Of a DNA stretch of 64,000 nt, positions 1 to 53,796 are shown one piece after another. Under the pieces are notes generated by a model that saw nothing but the letters and a program-made list of their open reading frames with translations, was not told where the DNA came from and searched no databases. The first letter of the stretch is position 1, and each line of letters starts with the position of its first letter. The position numbers and the translations under genes are program-made. The stretch lies in the NCBI GenBank assembly GCA_947650365.1, contig CANTAL010000139.1, forward strand, positions 310,001 to 374,000, read 5' to 3'. The DNA is from Chamaelirium japonicum (Eukaryota > Streptophyta > Magnoliopsida > Liliales > Melanthiaceae).

Positions 1-256
1 CACTCGGCCTGTCGAGGTCACTTCAACAGAAGTGTTAGTGAATTCGGGTGCTCCCTATAGCACGGAGACGTAGGCTTCGGCTGAACTCCGAGATCACATC
101 TCGTGTCACAATTTCTCTGATTGCATTCCTCTGTTTGCATATCAAAAGGCTTCGACTTCAATCAACAGATCGATCAACGATCTTCGACGTCAACTTCGAC
201 TTTAACTGACTGGTGCTGTGAGAATCTTCGGGTCGGCACGAAGATTTTCCCCCACA
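1..256 (+). repeat. 5' LTR of element A, 3' portion only
   Basis: Bases 1-256 match 14636-14891 with two differences (both transitions, near 190 and 202). The LTR ends in CCCACA, the inverse of the TGTGGG that starts the 3' LTR. A CACTTC/GAAGTG stem with an AACA loop lies at 19-34. The U3 part with the promoter is beyond the window. Confidence 0.95.
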
Positions 257-404: not shown

Positions 405-2873
405 ATGGCGAGAACCAAACACCAGGGTCAACCAGAAGGAAGTAACACTCAACATCAACCTCGTCCTGAGACTCGTTCAATGAGTCAAAGGCTCAATTTT
501 GGGCAGCCCCTTGCTGTCCCCGAGATGGGGGTTCATTCAGGAAGCGGGAGATCAGTCGATCGACCGATCGCCCCTCATTCTCATCAATCAATTGGGCAGA
601 CTGTCCCTGCTCCTGCTGAAGATCCTCCATCGACTTACCAGATCTCTGCAATCGATTTCCAACTACTCCAATTGGCGAAGCAAAACGCCACCCTCACTGC
701 TGAGAGGGATGCTCTGAAGAAGGCAGCTTCCGAAGCTGGAATTGCTATTCCGATCCCCTCCGCAAGTGAGAGGGTTGATCCTCCTCGACATTCAATTCAC
801 TCCGAACAACGGAGGTCAATGGGCACTGATGCTCTCGAGAGGATTCGACGCGACCCAACTCCCTCTGCTGCTCCTTGGAAGCAGAGTGTCTGGGATCGTC
901 TTGAAGACGAGTCCTCCCAATCCTCATCTGGTCGTAACTGCGACAAAAGAGCACCATCGAAGCTCAACATGCCAAGGAGGCACCAAATGAAAGGCGCTCC
1001 TTCAAAGAGCAGAGTCTCCCCTTCCATTCCACTCCAACGTGGACTTGGATCGGACCTTCGACACCGACTTCGACCGGCAAACACTTCAATGCCTGAGCAA
1101 GACCTTGCGATCTTGCCTCTTGACCCGCCTCTAGGTCGAGGACACGGTCGTAGGGAAGGTTACTCCTCTGCCGGGCCTCTACATCGAAGTCTCTTCGAGA
1201 CCACCTTTCCAAGAGGATGGAGAACTCCTATCCTCCCCAAATTCAACTGCATCAGAGGAGATCCAAGCCTCCACATACTTGCCTTCAAGCAAGCTCTAAC
1301 GCCACACGAAGAGGAAAACAACGTGCTCTGCCGCACCTTCGCGGGAAGTCTCGATGAGCCTTCGCTCGACTGGTATCACAATCTCCGAGCTGGGTCCATT
1401 TCCCAGTTCGGTGTTTTGGCTAACCTTTTTGTGCAGCACTATCAACTCAATCTAAAGCCAGAGAAGAAACTCGACTCTCTCTACCGACTGCGGATGGGTG
1501 CAGACGAGACTCTTCGCAGCTTCACGAGGAGGTTTCGCAACGAGCATGCTGCTCTCTCTGGAAGACATCTGGATGATGAAGCCATCATGTTGGCTTTCCA
1601 GAACGCTCTCCGCTTCGATCTACACATCTACAACGACTTCATCCGCAATCCCCCTCCTTCTCTGGGAGCAATGTTTGACCGAATTCAAAGAGAGATTGAG
1701 GTGGAAGACAATCAAGTCGCTCGGAAAGGGCGAGAAACTAAGAGAAGGCCTGCTGAAAGAGAAGCTCCTAAGTATGCTGCAAAGGCTCACAACGCTGAAG
1801 CAGCAGCCCCTCCGGCCAACAAAAGATCAAAGAATGATGGACGTCGATCTCCAACGAAGACCACTTTCACCGAGTGGAATATGCCGGTCGAACAGATACT
1901 CGACCGCATTCAACATGAAGAGTTCGTTCGGAGGCCTAATCCTCTTCAGCCGAATTCCAAATTCACAGCAGACAAGACAGTCTACTGCGACTTCCATCGA
2001 AGTCATGGCCATTCCACCGATCGGTGTTTTCGGCTGAAATTCCATCTTGAAGACCTATTGCGAGAAGGCCATCTTCAAGAGTTCGTTAGAGGCGGACACA
2101 ATCAACATCGGACCTCTGCAAAGGGGAAAGAAGTGTGTTGGATACATCAAATCTCCTCTAACCGTCAAACTATCTCTGTGAATGCCAATGTTTTTGGTAT
2201 TCATGGAACATTGCACAATCAAAGTCTGACTGGGAAAGAGGTGGATCGCCAAGTTCGACGCATCTTTCACGTTCGTTCTACTGCGAGCAAAGAAGATACC
2301 TGGATCGAGAAACCCATTGAAGGTCTTTCTTGGCCATCAATCGTCTTCAACGACACTGATCTTCAAGGAGTCCATACTCCACATCGAGACCCTCTGGTCT
2401 TGAAACTCATTGTTGACGGCAGCACTGTCAACCGGATCCTCATCGACACCGGAAGCTCCATCGACATTATGTTCTCAGACTGTTTCAAACGTCTGGGACA
2501 TAAGTATCAAAGCCTCGACGTCGTCCCGACTGTGATCACCGGCTTCAATGGTGAACAAAGCATCACAGTGGGCGAATCCAGATTTACTATCGACCTCAGC
2601 CGAGAGACTCGAGTCTCGGTGAGGTTTGCAATCGTCGAAGGAATGTCTAGCTACAACGCCATTCTTGGGCGACCATTCCTCCATCAGATCAATGCCATCT
2701 CCTCCTCTTACCATCAACTACTCAAGTTTGCAACTGGAGAAGGCATTGTCTGCATTCGAGGCGATCAGCAAGCTGGAAGGTCTTGTGAAGCTGCCGCGGC
2801 AAAGACAGATCGAAAGATTAACATTGCTCCTCCAAAGCGGCCACGAGATGAAGCTGGTCCCTCTTCCAAATAG
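405..2873 (+). CDS. gag: Gag-protease polyprotein of element A
   Basis: An 822-residue frame begins at the first ATG after the primer binding site. A basic, low-complexity N-terminus includes a short coiled coil (about residues 75-110). A retrotransposon Gag domain lies at about 275-440. A zinc-knuckle variant, C-x2-H-x4-H-x4-C, starts at Cys528. An aspartic protease follows, with the catalytic DTGSS at about residue 681 and the flap-side ILGRPF motif near 750. Gag forms the cytoplasmic virus-like particle that packages element RNA; the protease cleaves the polyprotein. The frame ends at a UAG exactly where protease stops and the RT linker begins, and the same frame is open beyond it. The homologous protein in element C ends at the equivalent place. 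Confidence 0.93.
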   Translation: MARTKHQGQPEGSNTQHQPRPETRSMSQRLNFGQPLAVPEMGVHSGSGRSVDRPIAPHSHQSIGQTVPAPAEDPPSTYQISAIDFQLLQLAKQNATLTAERDALKKAASEAGIAIPIPSASERVDPPRHSIHSEQRRSMGTDALERIRRDPTPSAAPWKQSVWDRLEDESSQSSSGRNCDKRAPSKLNMPRRHQMKGAPSKSRVSPSIPLQRGLGSDLRHRLRPANTSMPEQDLAILPLDPPLGRGHGRREGYSSAGPLHRSLFETTFPRGWRTPILPKFNCIRGDPSLHILAFKQALTPHEEENNVLCRTFAGSLDEPSLDWYHNLRAGSISQFGVLANLFVQHYQLNLKPEKKLDSLYRLRMGADETLRSFTRRFRNEHAALSGRHLDDEAIMLAFQNALRFDLHIYNDFIRNPPPSLGAMFDRIQREIEVEDNQVARKGRETKRRPAEREAPKYAAKAHNAEAAAPPANKRSKNDGRRSPTKTTFTEWNMPVEQILDRIQHEEFVRRPNPLQPNSKFTADKTVYCDFHRSHGHSTDRCFRLKFHLEDLLREGHLQEFVRGGHNQHRTSAKGKEVCWIHQISSNRQTISVNANVFGIHGTLHNQSLTGKEVDRQVRRIFHVRSTASKEDTWIEKPIEGLSWPSIVFNDTDLQGVHTPHRDPLVLKLIVDGSTVNRILIDTGSSIDIMFSDCFKRLGHKYQSLDVVPTVITGFNGEQSITVGESRFTIDLSRETRVSVRFAIVEGMSSYNAILGRPFLHQINAISSSYHQLLKFATGEGIVCIRGDQQAGRSCEAAAAKTDRKINIAPPKRPRDEAGPSSK

Positions 2874-2879
2874 CAATCA
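2871..2879 (+). promoter_or_regulatory. Probable leaky UAG stop (readthrough site) between gag-protease and RT
   Basis: The sequence is TAG CAA TCA. The six bases after the stop fit CARYYA, the context that promotes readthrough in Tobacco mosaic virus and in the soybean SIRE1 retroelement. The frame before (405-2870) and after (2874-6269) is the same, with no other stop. Element C has TAG CAA TTA at the equivalent position. A CAG-to-TAG mutation is the alternative, but the shared position and context in two diverged elements argue for a functional recoding site. Confidence 0.75.
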
Positions 2880-5800
2880 AAGGAGATTCCGCTGACCGAA
2901 CCTCCACCAATCGAATGGGAAGCATCACCTTCAATTGAAGAAATCATCCCGATCAACATAGGCAGCGGAGATCTCTCTCGACAAACATTTATTGGTACCG
3001 GTCTTAGCGACGCAGAAGCGCAAGACATGGTATCCTTCCTCCAGTCCAATATCGACGTCTTTGCTTGGTGTTTCGAAGACATGCCTGGTATCAATCCAGA
3101 TGACGCTTGTCACCGACTTGCGATCAAAGAAGAGGTGAAGCCTGTCAAGCAAAAGCCTCGCACCATTCGACCAGAGCTGCAAGTTGCTGTTCAAGAAGAA
3201 ATTACCAAGCTACTCGCAGCCGGATTCATCCGAGAAGTAGAGTATCCAACTTGGATCTCTAATATAGTGGGTGTTCCAAAGAAGAATGGGAAAGTCAGAG
3301 TCTGCATCGACTTTACTAATCTCAACAAGGCTTGCCCCAAAGATCCTTTTCCCATGCCAAGGATAGATAGACTCGTCGACGCCACTGCTGGCCACGAGCT
3401 ATTGTCTTTCATGGATGGGTATTCCGGATATAATCAAATTCCGCTCCACGCAGATGATCAAGAGAAGACATGTTTTGTGACTAGCCGAGGCCTTTATTGC
3501 TACAATGTCATGCCATTCGGCCTCAAAAATGCTGGTTCCACCTATCAAAGGCTAGTCACCAAAATGTTCGAAGATCAGATTGGTCGCAACGTCGAAGTAT
3601 ATGTCGATGATCTCCTCACCAAGAGTTCCGTTCGGAGTAAACATCTATCTGATCTGGCTGAAACCTTCCAAGTCCTTCGAAAGTATCGAATGAAGCTCAA
3701 TCCAGCCAAGTGCGCTTTCGGAGTTCAATCTGGCAAATTCCTGGGTCATCTTGTGACCAGGAGGGGTATTGAAGCCAATCCTGATCAAATTCGAGCCATC
3801 ATCGATATGCCTTCACCTACAAATCGAAAAGAAGTTCAACGCCTCACTGGAAGGTTAGCAGCACTCAATCGATTCATTTCAAAATCTTCCGACAAATGCA
3901 AACCCCTCTTCGACAAACTACGAAAGGCGGATACATCCGGCTGGAGTCCAATCTGTGAAGAGGCATTTCAAAGCATCAAGAAATATCTGGTGCAAGCTCC
4001 CATCCTGACTGCTCCATTGCCAAAAGAAGACTTGTGGCTCTATCTGGCCGTGACCGATCAAGCAATCAGCGCGGTCTTAGTCAGTAGAAGAGAAGGCGTC
4101 GAACATCCAGTCTACTACATCAGCCACACTCTTCTTCCGGCTGAAACTCGCTATTCGAAAACTGAGAAAGTCATCCTGGCCTTGCTCACTGCATCGCGTC
4201 GTCTCCAACCATATTTCGTCTCTCACCAGATCACTGTCATTTCAGAACACTCGCTCAAAGATATCATTGACAAAGCTGGTCGAGCTGGTCGAATGACCAA
4301 ATGGGTGATCGAAATGAGTGCTCTGGGGATTCAATTCGAATCTCGCACTTCTATCAAAGGTCAAGCAATTGCTGATTTTCTAGCTGACTTTCCAGTTGAA
4401 GACCCCATCATTTGGGAAGAAGATGTCGACATGCGCTTGGAAGATGAGGATAATCCTCCGATCAATCCTGCAACAAAAATTGATCCAAGTCTTGAAGTTA
4501 TTGCTGCAACTCCTCCTTGGACAACTCCTCCTTGGAAGCTTTATACTGATGGAGCATCAAGTTCGATCGGTTCGGGAACTGGGATAGTTTTAATATCCCC
4601 CGAACTTGATCATCTCCAGAAGGCCACTCTCCTTGGATTTAGTGCCACCAACAACGAAGCTGAATACGAAGCACTCATTTCCGGACTCGAAATGGCAGAA
4701 TCCCTGGGGGTAGATCGAATCATCATCTATAGCGACTCCCAGTTGATCATAAGGCAAATCAATGGAGAGTACACAGCTCGTGAAGAAAGAATGCAACTCT
4801 ACTTAGCTTTAGTACGACGTCTTCAACAACGTTTTACTACAATTGAGTTCGTTCAAATTCCAAGAGCAGAAAACCAAGAAGCAGATGCCTTAGCTAATGC
4901 TGCCTCAGTTCTGGGAGACTCGCTTGGAGGAAGGCAAGTACAGATCAATTATCAAGAAATGCCCAAGACCATCCCCGATCAACAGATCCTTACTACTACA
5001 AAAGGATCTGGGGGTGGAGATCAGCTTGAAGATTGGAGACGACCAATTCGTGACTTCTTCAAACATGGCAAAATGCCAGAAGATCCAAATCAAGCCCGAA
5101 GACTTCAAAGGAAGCTCCCATGCTACACTATTCAAGGAGAAGATCTGTACTTCAAATCTCACAACGGGATGTTGCTCAAGTGCCTTGGTCCAGAGCAAGC
5201 ACAGTCAATCCTGATTGATATCCACTCTGGAGCTTGTGGAAATCATTCGGGGGGAAGATCTCTTGAAGCCAAGACGAAGCTACAAGGGTACTACTGGCCA
5301 ACAATGGCAAGGGATGCTCAACAAGTCGTTCAAAGATGCGAGCCTTGCCAACGACACGCTCGAGCTATCCATCTCCCTGCAGATGAACTTCATCAATTAT
5401 CAAGCCCCTGGCCTTTCCATCAATGGGGGTTAGATTTCTTGGGTCCTTTCCCTCCAACTCCAAGCAAGAAGAAATATCTACTGCTGGCTACTGATTACTT
5501 CACCAAATGGGTTGAAGCTGTGCCCCTCTTTCGAGAGACTGACGACGAAGTGATCAAATTCATTCGGCACAACATCTTCTCAAGGTTTGGCACACCTCAA
5601 GTTCTTGTTGCTGACAATGGAGCTCAATTTGACTCAGACAAATTCCGAGAGTTCTGTCTGAACAACGGTATCAAGCTATTCTATTCAACTCCAAGATATC
5701 CTCAATGCAATGGTCAAGCTGAAGCCTCAAACAGAGCTATACTTGATATACTCAAGAAGAAACTCAACGACAAGAAAGGATTGTGGGAGCAAGTCCTACC

Positions 5801-6269
5801 TGAAGTTCTTTGGGGGTATCGCACAACTCCGAGAAGATCCACAGGGTTCTCACCCTTTCGTCTAACATATGGATCGGAAGCAATACTCCCAACAGAAAAT
5901 ATATCAAGTACTTTGAAAACCAAAGCTGTTGAAGAAGGAGTCAATGAAGAACTTCGGATCAACGATCTAGACTTCTCTGAAGAACTACGAGATCAAGCTT
6001 CTCTTCGTGTAGCCAAGTATCAACAGAAGATCAAAAGAGCCTATGACAAGAAAGTCCACAAGAGACAGTTCCCAGTGGGTAGTTTAGTTCTCAGAGCAGT
6101 TTTCTACAATACCAAAGAGCACAGCAGTGGAAAGCTTGCTCCCAACTGGGAAGGTCCATATATCATTGAATCAGTAGGAAGCAAAGGTTCTTACAGACTG
6201 ATCACACCAGAAGGAGATAGATTGCCTCGAGCTTGGAATTCTAGACACCTTAAGATGTTCTACCCATGA
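2874..6269 (+). CDS. pol: Pol of element A: reverse transcriptase, dual RNase H, integrase
   Basis: The frame continues from gag without shift; its first ATG is at 3027, and residues here count from that. The linker carries a DVFAW...DMPGI motif. RT has the YVDD centre at 192-195. The first RNase H (about 340-450) has lost catalytic residues: the usual TDAS position reads LAVT. A second, archaeal-type RNase H starts with YTDGAS (Asp508), then has NEAEYEAL and YSDSQL, so it probably supplies the activity. Integrase has an HHCC zinc site (His733, His739, Cys771, Cys774) and a D-D-35-E triad (Asp803, Asp863, Glu899). The protein ends at an intact C-terminus without a chromodomain. It copies element RNA to cDNA and inserts it. 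Expression probably needs readthrough of the UAG just upstream; internal initiation at 3027 is less likely. Confidence 0.94.
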   Translation, partial: QSKEIPLTEPPPIEWEASPSIEEIIPINIGSGDLSRQTFIGTGLSDAEAQDMVSFLQSNIDVFAWCFEDMPGINPDDACHRLAIKEEVKPVKQKPRTIRPELQVAVQEEITKLLAAGFIREVEYPTWISNIVGVPKKNGKVRVCIDFTNLNKACPKDPFPMPRIDRLVDATAGHELLSFMDGYSGYNQIPLHADDQEKTCFVTSRGLYCYNVMPFGLKNAGSTYQRLVTKMFEDQIGRNVEVYVDDLLTKSSVRSKHLSDLAETFQVLRKYRMKLNPAKCAFGVQSGKFLGHLVTRRGIEANPDQIRAIIDMPSPTNRKEVQRLTGRLAALNRFISKSSDKCKPLFDKLRKADTSGWSPICEEAFQSIKKYLVQAPILTAPLPKEDLWLYLAVTDQAISAVLVSRREGVEHPVYYISHTLLPAETRYSKTEKVILALLTASRRLQPYFVSHQITVISEHSLKDIIDKAGRAGRMTKWVIEMSALGIQFESRTSIKGQAIADFLADFPVEDPIIWEEDVDMRLEDEDNPPINPATKIDPSLEVIAATPPWTTPPWKLYTDGASSSIGSGTGIVLISPELDHLQKATLLGFSATNNEAEYEALISGLEMAESLGVDRIIIYSDSQLIIRQINGEYTAREERMQLYLALVRRLQQRFTTIEFVQIPRAENQEADALANAASVLGDSLGGRQVQINYQEMPKTIPDQQILTTTKGSGGGDQLEDWRRPIRDFFKHGKMPEDPNQARRLQRKLPCYTIQGEDLYFKSHNGMLLKCLGPEQAQSILIDIHSGACGNHSGGRSLEAKTKLQGYYWPTMARDAQQVVQRCEPCQRHARAIHLPADELHQLSSPWPFHQWGLDFLGPFPPTPSKKKYLLLATDYFTKWVEAVPLFRETDDEVIKFIRHNIFSRFGTPQVLVADNGAQFDSDKFREFCLNNGIKLFYSTPRYPQCNGQAEASNRAILDILKKKLNDKKGLWEQVLPEVLWGYRTTPRRSTGFSPFRLTYGSEAILPTENISSTLKTKAVEEGVNEELRINDLDFSEELRDQASLRVAKYQQKIKRAYDKKVHKRQFPVGSLVLRAVFYNTKEHSSGKLAPNWEGPYIIESVGSKGSYRLITPEGDRLPRAWNSRHLKMFYP

Positions 6270-7623: not shown

Positions 7624-9597
7624 TTATTTTCGAGCTTCAGAGACAAGGCATTCAAGGCGAGTTAGTTCAATTACCTGAGGTTTCGACCCTCGGCTCTTTG
7701 CCCTTCCGGCGATCAGAGCCACCCTGAGGGGTCGATTTCTCCTGAGTAGGAGTTGGCGCTGGTTGAAGTTGAGGAGCCCCATCACCCACTCGACTTCCCC
7801 TCTCCAAATGAGTAGGGGGGAAGCATTCCTCGGAGGAGAGACTCTCTCTTCCTCTTGTAATCCGCCAGGCTTGAGCCCTGCCACCATTGCTTCCACCTCC
7901 TCAAGTAGAGAGCGAGAGGGGAGTGGGGGTTGCTCTACTTCAACACCCCCGCTCGTTGTTGCTCCTTCAATACGAGGAACGTCGGGGGGAATCTGATCGA
8001 GGGGTGTGGGGTTGCTTCCAACCCCACCACTCCTCGACAGCTTTATTATCAGGCGCGTCGGCCTCTTCAATTCATCAAATTTGTAGGCGGGAACCACTCT
8101 TTGGCCATCGCCTTCCGCGTCCATAACTCCTTCCATCTGACGGGCCTTAGCCTCGTCAATGGGAACAGGAATTGAATCTTCTCCTGTTACACCAACAGTG
8201 GGGGTGGGAGGAATTTCTTCCTCACCACCCCCATTCTCGATATCTTCACCAGAAGGAGTCGATGACGGATCATCCTCGTCGTCGGCGTCCTCATCTTCGC
8301 CATTGCCACTGTTGTCGTGGCTGGCATTCTCAGTCTCTTCTTCTTCATTTTTCTTCCCTTCTTCTTCCTTTTCGATCTTCTTCCCTTGGTCTTCACCCTC
8401 CTGTTGCTTGATAAGGGTTTTTCGTTTCTTCTTCACTGGGCCTCTTTGGAGCACCAGTTTCTCGTCAAAAGTGGGCAATCGGCGCCTAGCAGTGTAGATC
8501 TTCTTCTCGGCCCGAATCTTTCGAATGACCTTGCCCGAGTGGGGATCCTCTTCATAGTCAGAATATAGGACTTCGTTGTCCTCATATCTATCCTTTGATC
8601 GGTGGAGGAGATTGGCCTTGCCGTATCTCACTGGGCAGTTGGAGAACTGCTTCCACGACCTCGTTCCACAAGTCAGCTCGAGGAATAAGTTGTCTATGGC
8701 TCCAGCCCTCTCAGAATTCCAGGCGAAGATGCCTCCCTCACTGTACATCTTCACGGCATCGTGCACGCTGTCTCGGGGGGTGTCGGGCACTGACATGGAT
8801 GTCCAGGCGCCAGATACAGAGATTGGCCAATCCGTATACAACTTGTCCGAAGGGACTGTATCGGTGAGTGGGCGCAGCGGAGATACTCCAGTCAAATTGT
8901 AGAACGGGCTGTCCCTTCTGTAGGCCCATCTGTAGTGGAAGAAGAAGTATCCAAGTTCGATCCTGGCAACTTCTCCTTCCGGGATACTGGAGTAGCATGC
9001 CCTCAAATCTTCCTGGAAATCTGATTCCACGCGGCAGAATGCGTAGATTATTCGCCAGGCGTTTCCTGTGACCTGCCCCGGGCAAAGGCCAGATGTATTC
9101 AGCAACCTTGCCGCAAAGGGTGGCAGCGGTAAACGCAGACCGCAGTTCATTTGGCCGATGGTCACGATGGTTCCCATGACCTTCTCGTTGCTGGCATAGC
9201 TGGTGAAGACGGTCTTCTTGTCGATGCCGAAAGCCGTCTGGATGCTAGGGAGTGAAGGCTGTGCCCCCTTCCCTTCTGTGAAGAAAGAGAGCAGTGCTTG
9301 CCATTTCTGTCTCTTCGTATCCGTGAACTCACCACCTACATTGTACATGTACTCTGTCTCCTCTGTCAGTGGCATAAGCGGACCCAGAACAAACTTCACT
9401 TTGGGGATGAACTCTGGCCTTGATGGCGCTGAGGCAAACCCTACCCCTTGGTGCCTCTTGCCCAGTTGGCCAAGTTCAGCGAGAGCAGCCTTGCCTTTGC
9501 CACGGCCCCTCGGAGGAGATTGAACCTCGACAATTTCCTTCCCCTTTCTCTTCAAGGGAGCAGTACCAGACTTCTTCGAACTGCCAGATGAAGCCAT
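7624..9597 (-). CDS. Antisense gene of element A, main exon (putative gypsy-type transposon domain)
   Basis: The open frame is longer, but the ATG at 9597 (MASSGSS) is chosen because B and C start the same way (MASAS, MASSA). The protein has a basic N-terminus, then a folded region with GLRLPLPPFAARLL and GLCPGQVTGNAWRIIYAF, matching GLRLPLNHLASELL and GLCPAQLPGNSWGILYGL in C. This resembles the plant 'putative gypsy type transposon' family (Pfam Transposase_28), by memory only. A Lys/Glu-rich acidic stretch and a Pro/Ser-rich tail follow. A donor CAG|GTAATT at 7675 would remove the last 17 codons. Antisense genes at this place are known in Tat elements; their function is not established. Nuclear localisation is plausible from the KKKRKTL cluster but is inference. 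Confidence 0.75.
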   Translation of the reverse strand: MASSGSSKKSGTAPLKRKGKEIVEVQSPPRGRGKGKAALAELGQLGKRHQGVGFASAPSRPEFIPKVKFVLGPLMPLTEETEYMYNVGGEFTDTKRQKWQALLSFFTEGKGAQPSLPSIQTAFGIDKKTVFTSYASNEKVMGTIVTIGQMNCGLRLPLPPFAARLLNTSGLCPGQVTGNAWRIIYAFCRVESDFQEDLRACYSSIPEGEVARIELGYFFFHYRWAYRRDSPFYNLTGVSPLRPLTDTVPSDKLYTDWPISVSGAWTSMSVPDTPRDSVHDAVKMYSEGGIFAWNSERAGAIDNLFLELTCGTRSWKQFSNCPVRYGKANLLHRSKDRYEDNEVLYSDYEEDPHSGKVIRKIRAEKKIYTARRRLPTFDEKLVLQRGPVKKKRKTLIKQQEGEDQGKKIEKEEEGKKNEEEETENASHDNSGNGEDEDADDEDDPSSTPSGEDIENGGGEEEIPPTPTVGVTGEDSIPVPIDEAKARQMEGVMDAEGDGQRVVPAYKFDELKRPTRLIIKLSRSGGVGSNPTPLDQIPPDVPRIEGATTSGGVEVEQPPLPSRSLLEEVEAMVAGLKPGGLQEEERVSPPRNASPLLIWRGEVEWVMGLLNFNQRQLLLRRNRPLRVALIAGRAKSRGSKPQVIELTRLECLVSEARK

Positions 9598-9738
9598 TGG
9601 ACCGATCGAACGAGAACAAGAACAAGAGCAGAAATCAAGAGAACAAGGGTCTGGACTTCGAAAAATTTTGGAAGCGTGAGGCGAAATGACAGCCGGTGAA
9701 AACTTTTGTACCCAGGGTAAAACAGGTGCGCAAATCGA

Positions 9739-9754
9739 GAAGACACGTGTCTTC
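9739..9754. promoter_or_regulatory. 16-bp palindrome with a G-box, upstream of the antisense start
   Basis: GAAGACACGTGTCTTC is a perfect palindrome centred on CACGTG, about 140 bases upstream of the antisense ATG. Elements B and C have GACACGTGTC-type boxes upstream of their antisense genes. G-boxes bind plant bZIP and bHLH factors. I found no clear TATA box on the minus strand here. Confidence 0.55.
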
Positions 9755-10050
9755 ACCATATCAAATCGCGTGTTTTTGTAGGTACACGTGGCATCCATCC
9801 GTAGCAAGCGCAAAATCAGGCGAACAGTCGCGACCAGGCGAAACGTCGGACCTACCGGTCCACATGAACCAACGGTCCAAGCAAGCCACCGGTCTGGGTA
9901 AACCGGACCGCCGGTTCAAAGCAACCATCAAGCCAACCAAGGATTCAAAACAAGAAGAATCAAGCTCCATCAATGTTCAAAACTCTACCAAAATATCGGA
10001 GAACAAAGCAGTAAACCTTCTCTGAAGGACAGGTTCAAAACTTTACTTTG
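9755..10050. other. Spacer between the antisense gene promoter and the 119-bp array
   Basis: This stretch holds several CCGGT/ACCGG motifs, partly as inverted pairs (around 9856-9915), and no coding frame with recognisable content. It probably belongs to the upstream region of the antisense gene. Confidence 0.4.
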
Positions 10051-13000: not shown

Positions 13001-13621
13001 CATGTCCGATCGGCGAAAGTTATCTGATCGGTCAAATTTCTACTGGATCTGGCAAAAAACCAAGGTTTTTTGCCGATCACTCGAACCTTGACCGGATATT
13101 TTTTCACCGATCGGACAAACATGTCCGATCGGCGAAAGTTATTTGATCGGTCAAATTTCTACTGGATCTGGCAAAAAACCAAGGTTTTTTGCCGATCACT
13201 CGAACCTTGACCGGATATTTTTTCACCGATCGGACAAACATGTCCGATCGGCGAAAGTTATTTGATCGGTCAAATTTCTACTGGATCTGGCAAAAAACCA
13301 AGGTTTTTTGCCGATCACTCGAACCTTGACCGGATATTTTTTTACCGATCGGACAAACATGTCCGATCGGCGAAAGTTATTTGATCGGTCAAATTTCTAC
13401 CGGATCTGGCAAAAAACCAAGGTTTTTTGCCGATCACTCGAACCTTGACCGGATATTTTTTCACCGATCGGACAAACATGTCCGATCGGCGAAAGATATT
13501 TGATCGGTCAAATTTCTACCGGATCTGGCAAAAAACCAAGGTTTTTTGCCGATCACTCGAACCTTGACCGGATATTTTTTCACCGATCGGACAAACATGT
13601 CCGATCGGCGAAAGTTATCTG
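10051..13621. repeat. About 30 tandem copies of a 119-bp hairpin-rich unit
   Basis: The period is 120 for the first unit and 119 for the following 29, with only scattered substitutions. Each unit has two strong inverted repeats: GGCAAAAAACC with GGTTTTTTGCC (2-base centre), and CCGATCGGACA with TGTCCGATCGG (4-base loop). The first is enclosed by GGTCAA and TTGACC, an inverted pair of W-box cores. The array lies inside element A, between the antisense gene and the 3' LTR, so it is upstream of the antisense gene. No protein is encoded. Confidence 0.95.
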
Positions 13622-13960
13622 ATCGGTCAAATTTACTACTGGATCGGTCAAAAAACCATGTTTTTTGACCGATCACCCAATTCTTGACCGGTTGAATTTT
13701 GCCCGATCGGTCAAAATTTGACCTATCGGTCAAAAATGACCGATCGGTCAAAAATGACCGATCGGTCAAAATTTAACCGATCGGTCAAAATTCCAGCTGA
13801 TCGGTCAAATTTACTACTGGATCGGTCAAAAAACCTTGTTTTTTGACCGATCACCCGATTCTTGACCGGTTGAATTTTGACCGATCGGTCAAAATTTGAC
13901 CGATCGGTCAAAATTTGACCGATCGGTCAAATTTGACCGATCGGTCCAAATTGACCGATC
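13622..13960. repeat. Two longer diverged units rich in the TTTGACCGATCGGTCAAA palindrome
   Basis: Two units start at 13622 and 13799. Each has a long hairpin (15-bp arms from GATCGGTCAAAAAAC, 3-base loop in the first) and runs of the 18-bp palindrome TTTGACCGATCGGTCAAA or close variants. They look like the less degraded ancestor of the 119-bp unit, whose arms read GGCAAAAAACC instead of GGTCAAAAAAC. 13961-14075 is unremarkable spacer before the polypurine tract. Confidence 0.85.
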
Positions 13961-14470: not shown

Positions 14471-14892
14471 CAGTGCCTTCGAATGTAAAAGGATCGAAAA
14501 TCTAAAATCCTGAATTCTGATTTCCACTCTGAGATCTGACTTTCAGAACCAGAGCTCTGGGATTTTCTAACTCCGATCTACCATCTCTCGTTGATCTTCT
14601 TTTCTCTTTCGAAGGGATCAGAAGATCTCCAGTGACACTCGGCCTGTCGAGGTCACTTCAACAGAAGTGTTAGTGAATTCGGGTGCTCCCTATAGCACGG
14701 AGACGTAGGCTTCGGCTGAACTCCGAGATCACATCTCGTGTCACAATTTCTCTGATTGCATTCCTCTGTTTGCATATCAAAAGGCTTCGACTTCAATCAA
14801 CAGATCGATCAACGATCTTCGACATCAACTTCGACTTCAACTGACTGGTGCTGTGAGAATCTTCGGGTCGGCACGAAGATTTTCCCCCACAG

Positions 14893-44613: not shown

Positions 44614-45881
44614 TGTTGGGGGTAGCTGAAATCGGCCCTGGAGTTCGCCCCCCCCCCCCCCCCCCCCCCGTGCTCACCAAATCACCTTGACAGGGAGCGA
44701 GATCCATATTGGGCTGAAGGGGCCTAGGCCAAGGGCACTCATCGGAGCTCGCCTAAGCTCGTTCAGGAGCTCGCCTAAGCTCTTTCATGAGCTCGCTCAA
44801 GCTCGTTCAGGAGCTCGCCAAGCTCGCCCCGGAGCTCGCCAAGCCCGCGCGAGAACTCGCTTGCAGTGGTAGCGGGAGTTAGACCGTCATGCATAACAAA
44901 GACACCGGCATCGCAAACGCCCATGGCTCATGCAGGAGCTCGCCCAAGATCGCACAGGAGCTCGCCCAAGTTCACCCTTGCCTGTGGATCTCATAGACCC
45001 TAGGATTCCAAGGGTGGGGAACTCGCCCAGGAGCCCGCTTGAACTCGCCCAGGGGCCCGCCTAAACTCGCCCAGGAGCCCACCTAAGCTCGCTCGGGAGC
45101 TCGCCAAGCTCACCCCGGAGCTCGCCTAAGCTCGTCATGCAGGAGCTCGCCCAAGTTCGCCCTTGCCTGTGGATCTCATAGACCCTAGGATTCCAAGGGG
45201 TGGGGAACTCGCCCAAGCTCGCTGGAGCTCGCCTGAGTTCACCCAGGAGCCTGCCTAAGCTCGCTCGGGAGCTCGTCAAGCTCGATCAGGAGCTCGCCTA
45301 AGCTCTCTCAGGAGTTCGCCAAGCTCGCTCAGGAGCTCGCTTAGCTCGCTCCGGAGCTCGCCCCGACCCCTGTTTTTCGAAGAGGTTGCCCCTGCGAGGT
45401 CCGACTCTTGATAAATATGGGCGAAAGGACGGAGCAGTATCGGGCGAGCTGGCTTTCGCTTCCTCCGTGAGACCGCCCGGACTTGAACATTCCAGAATGG
45501 CCACCTGGCCACGACAAGAAAGATGCCCTCCCCCACTTAAACCGTCTGGCAGGCTTGACGACAGAATGTCAGGGCGCGAGTACCAAGGACTGTCAGACCC
45601 ACGCGAGCCAGAACGTGGGGGTCTAGAAGGCCCTGGAAGAATCTCCACGTGTCGGGCCACGGTAGGCCGCCGATTGCTATAAATGCTCACCCCCAGGCTC
45701 CATAGTACAGGTTCGAAATCCTTTTCCCTACCACTTTGGTATACAACAGCTCGCCGTTGTGCTACTGTGACTGACTTGAGTGTCGGAGGGTCTGCGCTCC
45801 TAAAGGAGCCAGCCGTTCTCACGTTCTCTTTTCTTTGTCTTGCAGGCAGCCCGCACAGACCAGTGAAAAATCCCCCGAACA
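44614..45881 (+). repeat. 5' LTR of element C (1268 bp)
   Basis: It runs from TGTTGGGGGTAGC to CCCCCGAACA. A run of 22 C lies at 44648-44669. From about 44740 to 45360 it is built of short GAGCTCGCC/AAGCTCG words that are self-complementary (GAGCTC). A TATA box lies at 45678. Minus-strand open frames here are by-products of the repeats. Confidence 0.95.
45678..45685 (+). promoter_or_regulatory. TATA box of the element C LTR
   Basis: TATAAATG, conserved in element B (20163) and in C's 3' LTR (54861), follows the repeat-rich U3. Confidence 0.7.
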
Positions 45882-45883
45882 TT

Positions 45884-45901
45884 TAGCGCCGTCTGTGGGA
45901 T
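45884..45901 (+). other. Primer binding site of element C
   Basis: TAGCGCCGTCTGTGGGAT follows the LTR after two T. It equals the site of element A except for A in place of G at its second base, which would mispair with the CCA tail of a tRNA. The 45902-45971 leader shows nothing else. Confidence 0.75.
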
Positions 45902-45971
45902 CTTCGACCGGTTCCTGCGAGAACGCCCACAACCACGCGGTTGAGCACCGTTGGCTCTCATAACCCCAAAG

Positions 45972-48296
45972 ATGGCTCCGGCGATAAGGGGACGCAGGCG
46001 ACCGAGGACTCGTGCGAGATCTGCGCGCAGTGAGCCTCCTGTTGAGACCCCTCAGCCCCAGGTCCCGCTCAGTGACCAACTCTTGTTGGAGGTGTTGGCC
46101 ACCCAGCGGGCCATGATGGAGGAACTAACACGATTGCGTCAGGCTTCAGCGGCCAGCCGACGGTCTGGGCCAACGAAGACGGCGTCTCCGGTGCGACCAC
46201 CGGCGTCAATATCGCGCCCGCCCACGATCGCTCCGGCACGGCAGGTTTCCCATCCGGAACCCCCAGTCGGGAGAGCGGCTGTGCGCGGGGTGCCGGAAAC
46301 CCCGCTCACGAGGTTGCAGAAGCTAGTAACCCAGCGGTCTAGCAACCAGGCGACCTCGCGCGCGACCATCCCTTGCCACCGTAGCCGGAGCGTCGATTCT
46401 GACGGGTCGGAGGCAAGGTCTCTAGAGCGGGATCGCGACCCGCGCCATCGGCGACGAGGGAAAGAGCCTGCGGTGGCTATACCTTCCGAAGCTCGCGAGG
46501 CAACTGCCTCCCACAGACCAACTGACGCGCTGGAGGAATCCACGGGCGGACAGCAAGGAGGCCGCCGAGCGGTAGCCCCTGAGGGTCGCCGCGGGGTGGG
46601 TCCGACCTTGCCACGAGGGAGCGTACGAGACCGCCTAGGACCTGCGCAACCGCCTCTGGGAGTTCTCCCCGGGCACTGGCAGCGATCTAGTGCGCTAGTA
46701 GATTTACTGGAAGATCTCGCCGCCCACGGAGGTAGCTCGCCTTTCACCAGCAAGGTCCACCAAGGGGGTTTTCCGCACCACTGGACCCCCCCGAAGTTTG
46801 TATTGTTCGACGGGTCGCAGGATCCCGTTGACCATCTCTTGGCCTACAGAAAGCTTCTGTTTTTCCGGGACCAAGACCACGTCTTGTGCCGAGCATTCCC
46901 GAGCAGTTTGATCGGCTCGGCATTGAACTGGTTCCACAAGTTGCCGCCCGACATGATCCCCGACTTTCCAACTCTCTCTAGGCTATTCCTGGAGCAGTAT
47001 CACTGCAATAGGCAGCCCCCGAAGAGAATCGAGTCTCTATTTACCTTAGCCATGGGAGCTCGCGAGACGCTCCGGTGCTTCGCAACGCGATTCCGAAGCG
47101 CCTACCTCGCTCTGGAAGACGCGGCGGGCCAAGATCGTATCGTGGTGAGCGCTTTCAGAAGCGCCCTCCCCGAGGGGGGCAAGCTTCATGACGCTCTAGT
47201 GATCAAAGATCCTCGCATGATGGTTGAACTATTTGCCCTGGTCCAGCATCACATCAAGCTCGAAGACGCTGTGTTAGATCGGAAGGGAAAGGCAGTCGAG
47301 CAGCGACCTCCTCCGGCCCTGCGACCACTTGTCGTTAAGGCCGTGGAGAGGAGGGAGGTGCCACTGGCGGTGCCTTTGCCCGGACCGCCCGCAGCTCCTG
47401 CTGTACAGCCCGCTGAAGCCCCCGCGGCGGTCGCTGGAAGGCCGGCGAACTGGCGCCAGCCTCCGGGACCCGGGGAGCGGGACTTCACCGTGCTAACCCA
47501 TTCCCCAGGGCAAATCTTTTATCAGATTCGGAATGAACCTTTCTTCCAGTACCCGCCACCCCTGCAGGTCGGAGAGCCCGGCTCTATCGACAACTCGCGG
47601 CGGTGTGCTTTTCATCGAAGCCCTAGGCATCACACTAACAGATGCCGGGCTTTGAAGAACCACCTCGAGGATTTGGTCACCCAGGGCCATTTGAATCAGT
47701 TTATTTCGCCTCTAAGGAGGTTCGAGGTGATACCGGCACGGGCTCCTCGGGAGGGAGATCGCCTGGGGCCCGCTGAGCCCGCCTTACCTCCGCCTCCCCC
47801 GGGAGGACCGGCGATCTGCCATACCATTAGCGGGCGGCTGAGCGGCCCGAGATCCAGTAACGAAGCCCGCCGGCGAGTTAGGGAGATAGAGCGGGCACAG
47901 AAGGTATTTTCCGTCTCGCTAACTCCTACTTTACTTCAAGCACCGAGGGTGGAAGCCCGCGATTTTCTCTGGTTTTCGGAAGATGACATGGCTGGGGTCG
48001 TTACGCCCCACAATGACCCCCTCGTCGTACGCCTGATGATGGCTAACATCGAAGTGAGGCGAGCTCTGGTTGATTCGGGGAGCGCCGTTGATATCCTTTT
48101 TCTGTCGGCCTACTTGCGAATGGGGTTGAGACTTGCCGACCTGTCTCCCTCGACGAGCTCCCTCAGTGGATTCACCGGCGAGGTCGCCAAAGTGGCAGGA
48201 GAGATAACCCTTACTGTGACCGCGGGCCCGGAGGTTCGCCAAGTCCGCTTCGCGGTAGTGAACGGAAGTTCCGCATTTAATGCCATCCTTGGGTGA
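45972..48296 (+). pseudogene. gag: Gag-protease of element C, stopped in the protease by a TGA
   Basis: The ATG at 45972 (MAPAIRGRRRP, with A at -3 and G at +4) is the likely start; the frame extends upstream only from a TTG. Residues count from this ATG. A basic Arg/Pro-rich N-terminus is followed by the Gag domain at about 274-440, homologous to element A's (for example LFLEQYHCNRQPPKRIESL). A C-x2-H-x4-H-x4-C zinc knuckle starts at Cys545. The protease active site DSGSAVD is at about 701. The frame stops with TGA after AILG, where element A continues with Arg (CGA expected), so a single C-to-T change truncates the protease by 60 codons. Gag itself is intact and could still form particles. 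Confidence 0.85.
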
Positions 48297-48596
48297 CCTT
48301 GGCTAAGGCAAATGAATGCGGTATCTTCACCCAACCATCAGGCCCTCAAATTCCCAACCACGAGCGGGGTCGTAGTTATTCGGGGTGATCAGGTAGCCGC
48401 TACCAGATGCGAGCAGGATGTTCTTCACCTCATGGACATGGAGGTCGCCGAGGCCAAGAGGCCCGCGCCCTCCTAGCAATTACCGCTCGCTACGAGCGAG
48501 CTGATGGGGAGCCCGCTGGGGGCCTCCTCACTTAAGTCCCCTACTCTATCCCCGGGTGGGAGCGGCGTGGATCTTAAGTTGGAGGAGGAAGGTTAA
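48297..48596 (+). pseudogene. Protease tail, UAG, and short in-frame remnant where pol should follow
   Basis: After the TGA the same frame continues through the protease C-terminus (MNAVSSPNHQALKF, VVVIRGDQ) to a TAG at 48474-48476, then stays open 39 more codons to a TAA at 48594. None of this extension resembles RT. 48520-48590 holds an inverted pair, CCTCCTCACTTAAG and CTTAAGTTGGAGGAGG. The 48597-48640 junction leads into the 78-bp repeats. Pol was evidently lost by deletion or template switching. Confidence 0.75.
48474..48482 (+). promoter_or_regulatory. UAG CAATTA leaky-stop motif at the end of gag-protease (element C)
   Basis: TAG CAA TTA is identical to the Tobacco mosaic virus readthrough context and sits at the same distance class after the protease RGDQ motif as the UAG of element A. 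Here it has no pol to express, so it looks like a relic of the autonomous ancestor. Confidence 0.75.
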
Positions 48597-48640
48597 CTTG
48601 GAAGCTCGGTACAGACAGAGCCCGCAAGATCTATAGTGTG

Positions 48641-49060
48641 CAGTCCGCCGTTGTGCGGACTAAAAACAAGACCGGGACCCTCAGAGGCAGCCAGTGGGCA
48701 ACCTTGAGCTTCCCGGGGCAGTCCGCCGTCGTGCAGACTTAAAGCAAGACCGGGATCCTCAGAGGCAGCCAGTGGGCAACCTTGAGCTTCCCGGGGCAGT
48801 CCGCTGTCGTGCGGACTTAAAGCAAGACCGGGATCCTCAAAGGCAGCCAGTGGGCGACCTTGAGCTTCCCGGGGTAGTCCGCCGTTGTGCGGACTTAAAG
48901 CAAGACCAGGATCCTCAGAGGCAGCCAGTGGGCGACCTTGAGCTTCTCGGGGCAGTCCGTCATTGTGCGGACTTAAAGCAAGACTGGGATCCTCAGAGGC
49001 AGCAAGTGGGCGACCTTGAGATTCCCGGGGAAGTCCGCTGCCTAGTGGACTCTAAACCTG
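48641..49060 (+). repeat. 78-bp tandem repeat of element C, about 5.4 copies
   Basis: Copies begin at 48641, 48719, 48797, 48875, 48953 and 49031, each with CAGTCCGCC...GCGGAC. As 78 equals 26 codons, one frame is open across about 165 codons (48694-49191), encoding 26-residue units with a PGAVRRRADLKQDRDPQRQ-type core. No start signal or known domain supports translation. Confidence 0.93.
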
Positions 49061-49217
49061 ACCAGGATCCTTCGCGTTCACCTGCCATGAACGGAAGCAT
49101 CCTGGCGTTGGCATACCCCTCAAAGGGCGAGCCCGCCGAACAGGATTCTCGAGGGAAATTAACCGGGCAGGGGGCAGCTAGCACTTATTAGTTTCCTTTT
49201 AAAATAAAAATGGTTTA

Positions 49218-49284
49218 AGTCTCTGAGTGTAGGGAACTTTTTAGTCTTTTGGTTCACTTATCATTTTTTCCGGGCTCAGAGACT
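49218..49284. other. Conserved inverted repeat in element C
   Basis: AGTCTCTGAG (49218-49227) pairs with CTCAGAGACT (49275-49284), as in element B. The remaining spacer 49285-49506 has no gene. Confidence 0.6.
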
Positions 49285-49506
49285 ATTGAGTTTTAGCGAG
49301 CATGCCGAGCTTTTCGTTTGCATGTGTTTTAAAATAAAATGGTTGAATCGAATTAGTTGCCTCGCCCGGGGTATCACTCTCGAGATCGCTGCGAACTCCT
49401 AGAGCGGACTCATAAGTGGCATAGAGAAAGAAAGAAACATAGAGGCGAGCTCAAAGAGAACATTTCATTCATTGTTAAAAGTTACAACAGGGTTACAAGA
49501 GAGACC

Positions 49507-50055
49507 CTAGGCTGGGCCAGCACCCGCACCGTCGTCATCGCCGCGCTTCCTCTTTTTCGACCTTTCGGCCTTGTACTTCTCGATGGCATCGAGCGCGCCT
49601 TTCCGCAGGAGCTCGACGAGCTGCGCCTGGAGGCGGCTTTGCTGAGAGTGGAGGTCTTGGAGGTGTGTTTCCCTCAGAGACGCGATCTCATCCCTAGAAG
49701 CCGCCAACTGACGTCGAAGCTCGGAGATTTCCTTTTGGGCGGCCTCTTCAGCTCGACGGGCCCCTTGCACGTCGGATAGGGCGCGGTCGCGGGCGTCCTC
49801 AGCCGAAGCTAGCGTGGTGGTAAAGGTGGCGGCCCGCTGGCGCAGTTCGTCAACCTCCGTGTTGGAGGAGGCGACCTGCTGGCGCAGCCGGTCCACTTCA
49901 GCCCGCAGCTCGCCCGACCGGTCCATTTGGCGAATACGAAGGATGTGCTCGTCTACTCTCCTCTCCGAGTCATGGAGAGTGTCATCATAAAGGGCGACAG
50001 TATCCCCCGCGACGCCCGCGACCTCGTCGGTGAGAGCCCGGCTGACCCACTCTAC
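49507..50055 (-). CDS. Antisense gene of element C, coiled-coil terminal exon
   Basis: From 50055 to the TAG at 49507 the minus strand encodes about 182 residues. The start VEWVSRALTDEV aligns with AEKQSRALAAEV in B, a coiled coil follows (LRAEVDRLRQQVASSNTEV), and the end is a basic KKRKRGDDD. The intron upstream is 77 nt (50056-50132) with donor GAG|GTAAGA and acceptor TTTCCGTAG, a textbook plant intron, and splicing keeps frame. This is the clearest splice junction of the three elements and shows that the antisense strand is the coding one. Confidence 0.78.
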   Translation of the reverse strand, partial: VEWVSRALTDEVAGVAGDTVALYDDTLHDSERRVDEHILRIRQMDRSGELRAEVDRLRQQVASSNTEVDELRQRAATFTTTLASAEDARDRALSDVQGARRAEEAAQKEISELRRQLAASRDEIASLRETHLQDLHSQQSRLQAQLVELLRKGALDAIEKYKAERSKKRKRGDDDGAGAGPA

Positions 50056-50132
50056 CTACGGAAAGGGAAAACAGTTAAGAGTTAGAAGTTAGAACAGGGG
50101 TTTGGGACAAAGAAGTATGAAGGTAATCTTAC

Positions 50133-51500
50133 CTCGAGGAGTCGGTTGATGAGAGCGATATAGGGAGTCTGGGCGAAGATGTTGCGTCCCAGGATCTCCC
50201 GCATGAAGAAAGGGGCACGCTCGGGGTCGCCAGAGGAGGAGCCCGCTTGGCTCGCCTCGGTGGGAGCAGCTGGAGGGGGCGCACTGATGACAGCAGCGGC
50301 GGGCTCGGCCCCTTGAGCACCGGCAACCCCTTCATTGATAGGGGAAGGCACGGCGGCTCCCCTTCGCCCAGGCAAGTCCGGGTCCGAGGCTTCCGAGCTG
50401 GAACACGGAAGGTCGTCCAGGATGGCCCCCAGGTCCGGAGACCAGTAGACCAACCCGCCCAGCTCTGGGAGAGGAGGAACCTCAAGAGTGGCAGGCGCGG
50501 GCTCAGGCGCGGGCGCGCTAGGAGCCATAGGCGCGGGCTCGGGCGCGAGCGCGCTGAGAGCAGGCGCAGGCGCGGGCTCGGACGTGGGCGCGCTGATAGC
50601 AGGCTCAGGCGCGGGCTCGGGCGCGGGCGTGCTGGGCGCGGGCTCGGGCGCAGGCGCGGGCTCGGGCACGAGCGCGCTGAGAGCAGGCGCAGGCGCGGGC
50701 TCGGACGCGGGCGCGCTGATAGCAGGCTCAGGTGCGGGCTCGGGCGCGGGTTCGGGCGCGGGCGTGCTGGGCGCAGGCTCGGGCGCAGGCGCGGGCTCGG
50801 GCGCGGGCGCGCTGAGGGCAGGCGCAGGCGCGGGCGCGGGCTCGGGCGCAGGCGTGCTGGCAGGCGCGGGCTCGGGCGCGGGCACGGGCGCGGGCGCAGG
50901 CGCGGGCTCGGGCGCGAGCTCGGGGGAAGTAGGCGCGCTGGCAGCAGAGGGCGCAGGCGCGGGCGCGGGCATGCTGGGAGCAGGCGCGGCCGGTGTTGGT
51001 GTCGCGCTCAGAGTGAGCGGAAGGGTTGAGCCCGCCGGAGCTGGTCCCTCGAAGGGCGGGGGAAGCCCCGCAGTTGTAGCCGCGGGCTCATCTTCCGTAG
51101 CCCGCTCCTCGTCGTTTGAGCTGGAGGTCGTGCTGAGATCATCGGCTGATCCCAAGCCCGCCTCCGCGAGGGCGGCCTTCCTCCGCTCCTCGAGGACCTA
51201 TTGGAAGGCTTCGCGAGCCTCCCGAACAGTGTTGTCCTCTCCAGATGGGCGGGCTGAGGAGGTCTTCTTCTTCCTCGCCTTCTTCTGCGAGGCACCCTCT
51301 GGATTCATCACCGCAACAAACAAAGTTTTAGTCAGATCGCCTGGGAACTCGCGCATCAGCACTTCAGCCATTGGGGACTCTACTTCCGCCATGCTGAGAA
51401 GAAGCTCGACGCGCGGATCCTCGGGCTCGACGAAGGAAATGCGACGTCGCCGAGGCTCCGGGACTGGGGCCCTCGGAGAAATGACAGAAAGAGAGGTTGC
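50133..51500 (-). CDS. Antisense gene of element C, Ala/Pro/Glu-rich middle part
   Basis: In one frame with the exon upstream, it encodes a basic linker (RRRRISFVEPEDP), MAEV...EFPGDLTKTLFVAVM, a basic KKARKKKTSSARP segment, an acidic stretch, then over 150 residues of Pro-Ala-Glu repeats (PAPEPAPAP) and the conserved FFMREILGRNIFAQTPY before the splice donor at 50133. A TAG at 51198-51200 interrupts it after REAFQ; B reads through here. GC-rich low-complexity DNA makes opposite-strand frames open too; those are shadows. The repeat region varies in length among A, B and C. Confidence 0.65.
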
Positions 51501-52520
51501 CTAACCTAGGGCTGCTTCGCGGGTTGGTGGCGGCGGTGGCGTGACATCCTCCTCGTGGAGCATCTCGAGAGTGTCCTTGTCGGTGACCTGGATAGGGGAA
51601 GCCCGCTTCTTCCCCTTCCTCGCCGAGGTCCCCGCAGCGGAGGTCACGGTAGCAGGCCGGGAGACCGCGACCTTCTTCCGCATCACCTTCTGCCGGGTGG
51701 TGATGGTTCCGGTCCGTAGATCCTTCCAGAGGAAGGAGAAGTCCGACGGGAGGACCTTCTCGAGGGTTCGACCCCCGAGGAAGTCCAGAATCGCCTCGTC
51801 GAGCGATCTTTCGCGGGCTGCGGCGATGCACTTCTTCCCCTTTGCCCGATACTCCGTGATCTCCTTAAAGACAGGGAGAGGCGGTCTACCGGGAAGAGAG
51901 GGGACACCGGCTCGAGGACCTCGCCACTCGCTGTCGATCACGAACGGGTACGCTTTCTAGTACCGATCTTTGTTCTCGACGGCAGTGAACGGAAGCATCT
52001 CGCCGGAGCGGCCCGTGAGGTAGAACTGTCCACAGTCTACCTCGCCAAAGAAGGGCCCCGGTTTGAGGAACCACTTCTTCAGGAGGTAGGCTAGGGGGGT
52101 CCTCACGTTTAGGGATTCCTCGATGCGAGCAAGCCCATAGAGGATCCCCCACGAGTTTCCTGGAAGCTGGGCGGGGCATAAGCCCGCCAGTTCCAGGAGC
52201 TCGCTGGCCAGATGGTTCAGGGGCAGCCGGAGCCCTGACCATAACTGCCCCACGGAGACCACGGTCCCCGAGAGCGGCCTCCCGGAGCTCGGAAGAGGAA
52301 GAATGGCGAGCTCTTGGGGAATGCCCACCGCGGTTCGCAGGCTATCGGGGATGGGCGCACCCCCGATGACATGGAACCAAACGACGGCGGGCTCCTTCGG
52401 AGGTGCCTCTTCTCCTGAGCCCGGAGTCCGCACCGAGATGGGGGCGACATTTAGAGGCCCCTCTCGGGAGGACGCAGCAGCAGCAGCAGCCGAAGAAGCA
52501 GCAGCGGCAGAGGAAGCCAT
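51501..52520 (-). pseudogene. Antisense gene of element C, N-terminal transposon-like domain with one nonsense codon
   Basis: It starts at the ATG at 52520 (MASSAAAASS). The domain carries GLRLPLNHLASELLEL, GLCPAQLPGNSWGILYGL and a YLLKKWFLKPGPFF segment. A TAG at 51958-51960 after ENKDRY replaces the Trp codon that B has (ENKDSHWK). The same frame continues through SLDEAILDFLGGRTLEK and KKRASPIQVTDKDTLEML to a TAG at 51501-51503, which B shares at the same site. Function is unknown; family resemblance as for element A. Confidence 0.75.
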
Positions 52521-52612
52521 GAGCAGGAAGGCGCTAGCGAGCTGCGAGCAGAAGGCAAAGAAGGAAGGGAGAGCTGTTTTTCACGCAGCGATAAAAATCG
52601 CCCCCCGTCCCC

Positions 52613-52620
52613 TATTTATA
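52613..52620 (-). promoter_or_regulatory. TATA box for the antisense gene of element C
   Basis: TATAAATA on the minus strand, 93 bases before the ATG at 52520, conserved with element B. Confidence 0.7.
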
Positions 52621-52730
52621 GGCAAGTGAGAGACAGGTGAATCGATCCGCAGTTAATGCCCAAGCGCGCTCGGTGAGGCAACGTGACGGTAATCGAAGTG
52701 ATAGCTTGTTTCTTTCCAATCGTCAAGCGC

Positions 52731-52821
52731 CACGTGGGCCACGCGTGGAAAAGGCTGCGCCGGCATCGACACTGTCATTTACTGATAGAAGAAGAGCGAA
52801 TGAGGAGGAGACACGTGTCTC
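52731..52821 (-). promoter_or_regulatory. G-boxes upstream of the antisense TATA box (element C)
   Basis: CACGTG lies at 52731-52736 and within the 14-bp palindrome GAGACACGTGTCTC at 52808-52821. Both positions match G-boxes of element B. Confidence 0.6.
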
Positions 52822-52928
52822 GCGCCGATCGGGATCTCATGATGAGATTCGCTGTATCAGCATTGAGCCTCGCGTCGCATTTAAGGTGAAGCGACCGTTG
52901 GAGATTTGGTGCGATACCCAAGTCACAA

Positions 52929-53690
52929 GATCGCTCGTGGCAGGTGCCCGCAGCTCGCCCGAGGCAGACCCTGACCGCGTGTGACAAGCTCGCACCGGAA
53001 GGAGATCGCTCGCGGCTGACGCTCCCGGCCCGCCCAGCGTTTGTGAAATACTGGGAGTCAAAGCTCTCAGCATAGACCGCCCACGGCAGGCGCCCAAGCT
53101 CGCCCGAAGCAGACCCTGACCGCGTGTGACAAACTCGCACCGGAAGGAGATCGCTCAAGGCTGACGCTCGCGGCCCGCCCGGCTTTTTGTGGAGTACTGA
53201 GAGTCAAAACTCTCAACGCAGACCGCTCACGGCAGGTGCCCGCAGCTCGCTCGAGGCAGACCCTGACCGCATGTGACAAGCTCGCATCGGAAGGAGATCG
53301 CTCGTGGCTGATGCTCGTGGCCCGCCCAGCGTTTGGGAAGTACTGGCAGTCAAAAGCTCTCGGCACAGACCGCCTACGGCAGGTGCCCGCAGCTCGCTCG
53401 AGGCAGACCCTGACCGCATGTGACAAGCTCGCATCGGAAGGAGATCGCTCGTGGCTGATGCTCGTGGCCCGCCCAGCGTTTGAGAAGTACTGAGAGTCAA
53501 AACTCTCGACGCAGATCGCCCATGGCTGGAGCCCGCAGCTCACCCGACGCAGACCCTGACCGTGCGTGGCAAGCTCGCACCGGAAGGAGATCGCTCGTGG
53601 CTGGCGCTCCCGGCCCGCCCCGCATTTTGAATATACTGACAGTCAAAGCTCTCGACGCAAATCGCCCATGGCATGTGCCCACAGCCCATC
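52929..53690. repeat. 146-bp tandem repeat of element C, about 5.2 copies
   Basis: Copies start at 52929, 53075, 53221, 53368, 53514 and about 53660, homologous to the 144-bp repeats of B. They lie between the antisense promoter and the polypurine tract. Confidence 0.9.
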
Positions 53691-53784
53691 AGGTTGAGGT
53701 CGCCAATGACTGGTACTCCCAGTCCGACCGGCTTGTGCAATGAGACTCCTGAGCAAGCGCCAAAGTCTCCTTGGTCGCTTCCTC

Positions 53785-53793
53785 AGGAGGGGG
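53785..53793 (+). other. Polypurine tract of element C
   Basis: AGGAGGGGG then TAA directly before the 3' LTR. Confidence 0.87.
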
Positions 53794-53796
53794 TAA

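Follow-up and report, generated by a model that had tools for sequence, protein, structure and literature searches.

The UAG codon that separates the gag-protease frame from the reverse transcriptase (RT) frame of a Ty3 retrotransposon in Chamaelirium japonicum (2871..2873, + strand) probably represents a programmed type I readthrough site, which would act as the switch from Gag-Pro to Pol of this element. According to this explanation, most ribosomes would stop at the UAG and Gag-protease would be released as the main product, while a minority of ribosomes would insert an amino acid at the UAG and would produce a Gag-protease-RT-RNase H-integrase protein as minor product. The signal would be bipartite: A-A-UAG-CAA-UCA as type I context would be combined with a predicted 15-bp stem 8 nt past the stop. 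If readthrough takes place there, its rate would set the ratio of Gag to Pol. As the protease is encoded 5′ of the stop, it is the supply of RT and integrase, and not that of the protease, to which this ratio would apply. In gammaretroviruses, by comparison, the protease is encoded 3′ of the stop.

The retrotransposon, referred to as element A, lies at the start of the window (the entire analyzed stretch of 64,000 nucleotides), by which its left LTR is clipped. The 3′ part of this LTR (1..256, + strand) recurs near the right end of the element (about 14636..14892, + strand), and with 2 differences in 257 aligned bases between these LTR parts element A is a young copy. A primer-binding site presumably begins at about 258, right after the left LTR. 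From the ATG at 405 to the stop codon at 6267-6269 there is one frame of 1,955 codons, in which stops are found at codons 823 and 1955; the UAG at codon 823 is the sole internal stop in 1,954 codons. The gag-protease ORF (405..2873, 822 aa) contains a gag domain (about 1338-1613) and an aspartyl protease domain (about 2409-2678), both identified with Pfam. The pol frame 3′ of the stop (2874..6269, 1131 codons) exhibits Pfam matches, in this order, to RT (about 3273-3749), RNase H (3942-4238; pol residues 357-455), a second RNase H (RVT_3; 4626-4904, pol residues 585-677), an integrase zinc finger (5193-5360; the integrase begins at pol residue 774) and an integrase core (5412-5702), all of them on the + strand. 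The UAG itself falls within the stretch that links protease and RT, with AAA as the preceding codon and CAATCA (2874..2879, + strand) directly 3′ of it; both 5′ and 3′ of this codon the frame is open, and no spacer is present. A check of sequence and frame thus confirmed the observation of the earlier note that gag-protease and RT share one frame, with a single TAG at their boundary followed by CAATCA. At the other end of the gag-protease ORF, the ATG abuts an in-frame TGA directly upstream (TGAATG, 402-407).

UAG-CARYYA is the motif of type I readthrough (PMC3542737) and is present in element A (UAG-CAATCA) as well as in a further element of the window, element C (UAG-CAATTA). Adenines at the two positions 5′ of a stop have been shown in yeast to stimulate readthrough (PMC3542737); unlike element A, element C has no AA ahead of its stop (TCC-UAG). 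A long frame with conserved domains, from RT to integrase, continues beyond the stop of element A, whereas past the TAG of element C 39 codons are followed by a TAA. In the window as a whole TAGCARYYA is not enriched, since it was found three times compared with 1.62 expected, and at least three occurrences were reached in 22 of 100 shuffles. Its bare count was therefore rejected as support. The third occurrence (46340) lies inside the gag of element C and is out of frame. The hexamer CARYYA was observed at 48 of 30,711 + strand positions of non-satellite DNA, i.e., 1 in 640, which is near the chance figure of 1 in 512 that had been given before. What is unusual is the placement of TAG-CARYYA and not the pattern itself. 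In-frame codons that are, or by one transition could become, a stop number 171 in element A and 62 in element C, including the actual TAG in each case. None of the 170 and 61 other codons has CARYYA next to it, which counts against random decay as the source of the stop. Likewise, no CARYYA follows those in-frame codons that are any single-base change away from a stop (0 of 624 in element A and 0 of 209 in element C).

Element C (44614..55064, + strand) has LTRs of 1,268 bp (44614-45881 and 53797-55064), which are 96.8% identical over 1,265 aligned columns, and a 5-bp target duplication (GATTG). Its primer-site-like sequence resembles that of element A, and its gag-protease frame starts at 45945. 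A tblastn search of element C with the pol of element A yielded no match at E up to 1, and RT and integrase were not found in this way. Because of its LTRs, primer-site-like sequence and target duplication together with this lack of a detectable RT or integrase, element C is taken to be a polymerase-less element; with its near-full gag-protease frame it is a candidate for a semi-autonomous family. As judged by coding content alone it resembles RLG_Sabrina_SA of wheat, which has Gag-Pro without a full polyprotein and is called semi-autonomous (PMC9744471). In a local alignment of 685 codons, the gag-protease sequences of elements A and C were identical at 37% of the amino acids; BLASTP gave 31% for 563 columns. 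Their silent sites are saturated, as the identity at third codon positions is 0.288. Between the two, stop and hexamer agree in 8 of 9 bases, and an agreement of at least 8 was found in 9 of 625 three-codon windows; this agreement of the stop context comes from a comparison of two elements, one of which (element C) is without pol. The TAG-CAATTA of element C (48474..48482, + strand; TAG at 48474-48476, CAATTA at 48477-48482) is situated in frame, where the gag-protease frame ends, and at the homologous place, so that the equivalent position claimed in the earlier note holds. However, a premature in-frame TGA in the protease (48294..48296, + strand) ends the open frame before this point is reached. 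As no pol was found and the TGA comes earlier, the TAG-CAATTA context in element C may be a relic or may serve the 39-residue tail.

Between the pol of element A and its right LTR a 119-bp tandem repeat with about 31 copies and 97% matches was observed (10047-13715). The DNA to the right of this LTR matches the tandem repeats and the 3′ region of element C in pieces of about 69-95% identity, and element A was apparently inserted into the tandem repeats of a second element resembling C, referred to as element B (14890-20300). Element C is flanked by large arrays of a 23-bp satellite (20374-44611 and 55065-63972) with the consensus ATGAATTAGAATGGATCGTACGA and 78-79% matches. Flips of the GC skew and reverse-complement consensus units in these arrays suggest strand switches.

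Downstream of the UAG of element A, folding of the 120 nt after the stop predicted a helix of 15 bp with one bulged base per strand (5′ arm 2882..2897, 3′ arm 2961..2976, + strand), which starts 8 nt past the stop. A perfect 7-bp hairpin was predicted at the same distance from the stop of element C (48485..48501, + strand; arms 48485-48491 and 48495-48501). UAG-CAA-UUA and this compact hairpin might thus form the same kind of signal in element C. For element A, eight sequence contexts between 120 and 701 nt in length gave the predicted helix a mean pair probability of 0.79-0.93; for element C the value was 0.86-0.96 in six contexts. When the best helix starting at +9 was compared with those elsewhere, an equal or better one was found for 0.2% of 5,796 starts in the gag-pol of element A and for 1.9% of 10,250 starts in element C. 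None of 3000 synonymous resamplings matched the helix of element A (one of 3000 if starts from +8 to +10 were allowed), and none of 3000 mononucleotide shuffles did so. The hairpin of element C was matched by 105 of 3000 shuffles (3.5%), or by 182 of 3000 with starts from +8 to +10. This test for a helix at +9 was devised after the fold had been seen. The spacing of 8 nt is nevertheless an outside expectation, as structures 3′ of leaky stops are described to begin typically around 8 nt after the stop and to be common, albeit not ubiquitous (PMC3542737). Folding energy as a whole was not accepted as support, since in this respect the stretch after the stop is not unusual for element A: depending on which of five folding-window lengths was used, z-scores lay between -0.5 and -2.7, and 21 of 144 folding windows of its gag-pol had z ≤ -2.19 (25 shuffles each). 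Dinucleotide shuffles folded as well in 8 of 200 cases for the 120 nt of element A, in 48 of 200 for element C and in 164 of 200 for positions 2830-2950 of element A. In a search of Rfam, the region 2700-3300 remained without a match (E up to 1). It should be added that TMV-type readthrough is reported to need local sequence only (PMC3542737), and the stem may therefore be irrelevant.

Other explanations for the stop have to be weighed against readthrough. The UAG could have arisen by random decay of a single ancestral gag-pol frame, in which a sense codon such as CAG was changed to TAG by methylation-driven C to T transition and left a dead copy. Decay of this kind is common in plant elements, as new copies of two wheat families are estimated to carry about 0.3 in-frame stops and those of a third family 1.4 (PMC9744471), and an early TGA is present in element C. 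For element A, decay is yet very improbable: no other internal stop is present in the 1,954 codons and the LTR parts are nearly identical, the TAG at 2871 is the one codon among the 171 actual or one-transition stops with CARYYA next to it, and element C, the third positions of which are saturated relative to element A, has the same type of stop and hexamer.

It is also highly unlikely that the stop lies in an intron which is removed from some transcripts and thereby joins gag-pro to pol, although such splicing was experimentally reported for Ogre, a related Tat lineage (PMC6317226). For introns of 60-400 nt across the stop of element A, 69 GT-AG pairs would indeed keep the frame, counted regardless of stops after joining, but the best of them on a rough, uncalibrated score agrees at 6 of 9 positions for the donor and at 4 of 6 for the acceptor. 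In addition, a single stop codon and no non-coding region separates the two frames, and splicing would leave the CARYYA hexamer unexplained. It appears extremely unlikely that pol starts independently at pol codon 52 (3027), its first in-frame AUG, whether ribosomes would reinitiate there or enter internally. This AUG is positioned upstream of the RT domain, but it is preceded by an out-of-frame AUG at 2915 and by 51 open codons, and neither the hexamer nor the fact that both frames stay in register would be explained. For element A, the leaky UAG which the earlier note had proposed as gag-to-pol switch for the element group is hence retained as the best reading, considering the downstream helix and the young, otherwise open frame. 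It does not extend to element C, which cannot use such a switch, as no pol was found and a TGA lies in its protease.

An additional RNase H (aRH), positioned after the first one and ahead of the integrase, is described as a mark of Tat elements from angiosperms, which are Ogre or Retand (PMC6317226). As the RVT_3 match of element A occupies this position and is read here as aRH, the element can be placed with these Tat elements. Retand is further recognized by a long stretch from pol to the LTR in which an antisense ORF encodes Transposase_28. Between pol and right LTR of element A, an antisense ORF of 763 aa (7624..9915, - strand) has a weak match to Transposase_28 (E 2.6e-4; 21.6 bits, which is below the Pfam cut-off of 26.2), and this points to element A being Retand-like. 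No Pfam match was obtained for the four antisense ORFs of elements B and C that were scanned. Searches for closer relatives were of little help. Viral contigs yielded no relative for the start of the pol of element A, nor for two further motifs; four viral-contig stretches with the motif LNKACPKD were discarded, as they had no tblastn match to element A at E 1e-3. Genome contigs yielded seven stretches, all with bacterial titles, plasmids gave three bacterial records with less than 31% identity, which were not useful as relatives, and a search among phages gave none.

In a survey of Retand elements, gag and pol were reported to be in one ORF in 37 (59%) of 63 clusters, with a share of 29% in "Liliaceae", which we read as Liliopsida (monocots), compared with 83% in eudicots; for the remaining clusters the figures come with the frame relation unstated (PMC11963269). 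A split between gag and pol is by these numbers ordinary in monocot Retand elements. The earlier idea that readthrough here replaces a single fused frame usual in plant Ty3 elements accordingly fits poorly with Retand. RIRE2 of rice (Ohtsubo et al., 1999) is listed under Retand (PMC6317226), and a paper of 2009 refers to it when mentioning candidate genes for readthrough in gypsy-type elements of rice (PMC2754532). With a candidate of the same lineage and with split gag and pol being common in monocot Retand, the idea of readthrough is not new. In our literature search, which covered few subscription journals, we encountered no report of the type I context, alone or together with a stem, for Ty3 elements of plants. 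A paper on a fungal retrotransposon that was found for CARYYA was set aside, as its element is without the motif.

Among known systems, a close counterpart of the stop context is type I viral readthrough, as the tobamovirus replicase and the coat extensions of pomoviruses and benyviruses have UAG-CAA-UYA, like elements A and C. These are, however, RNA viruses, and the extended product is a replicase or a coat protein and not the result of a switch from Gag-Pro to Pol. For the benyvirus coat-protein extension, UAG-CAA-UUA is listed with a compact stem-loop, on the basis of unpublished data (PMC3542737). In leaf assays of such contexts, readthrough reached 32% (TMV) and 11% (BNYVV), and tyrosine is inserted at the UAG of the TMV context in plants (PMC2754532). 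Given these values for similar contexts, the five-percent range suggested for element A in the earlier note is not established. In gammaretroviruses, as in element A, gag and pol share a frame that is interrupted by a UAG, and a structure follows after a spacer of 8 nt, but their signal is of type III, with UAG-G and a compact pseudoknot (PMC3542737). Ogre, from the Tat clade, is divided into Gag-Pro and RT-RH-INT at the same domain border as element A; it differs in that the region between its ORFs, 274 bp on average, is spliced as an intron (PMC6317226).

As of 2009, all experimentally verified readthrough in plants was described as viral (PMC2754532), and later work on readthrough of Arabidopsis mRNAs exists (PMC9293766). 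Retand elements can reach high copy numbers, with 4,800 copies given for Silene latifolia and 15,904 for maize (PMC11963269). We tentatively consider it possible, though not yet the expected outcome, that many two-ORF Retand elements, especially those of monocots, share a conserved UAG-CARYYA with a stem 8 nt downstream and would thus constitute a large family of such signals in host genomes. The signal of element A offers a short testable cassette, for which the TMV context could serve as yardstick. If it is true that a type I signal is conserved in this way, it would explain how Retand elements with split frames produce Pol, and it would mean that TMV-type gag-pol readthrough signals persist even in partners that lack a polymerase, like element C.
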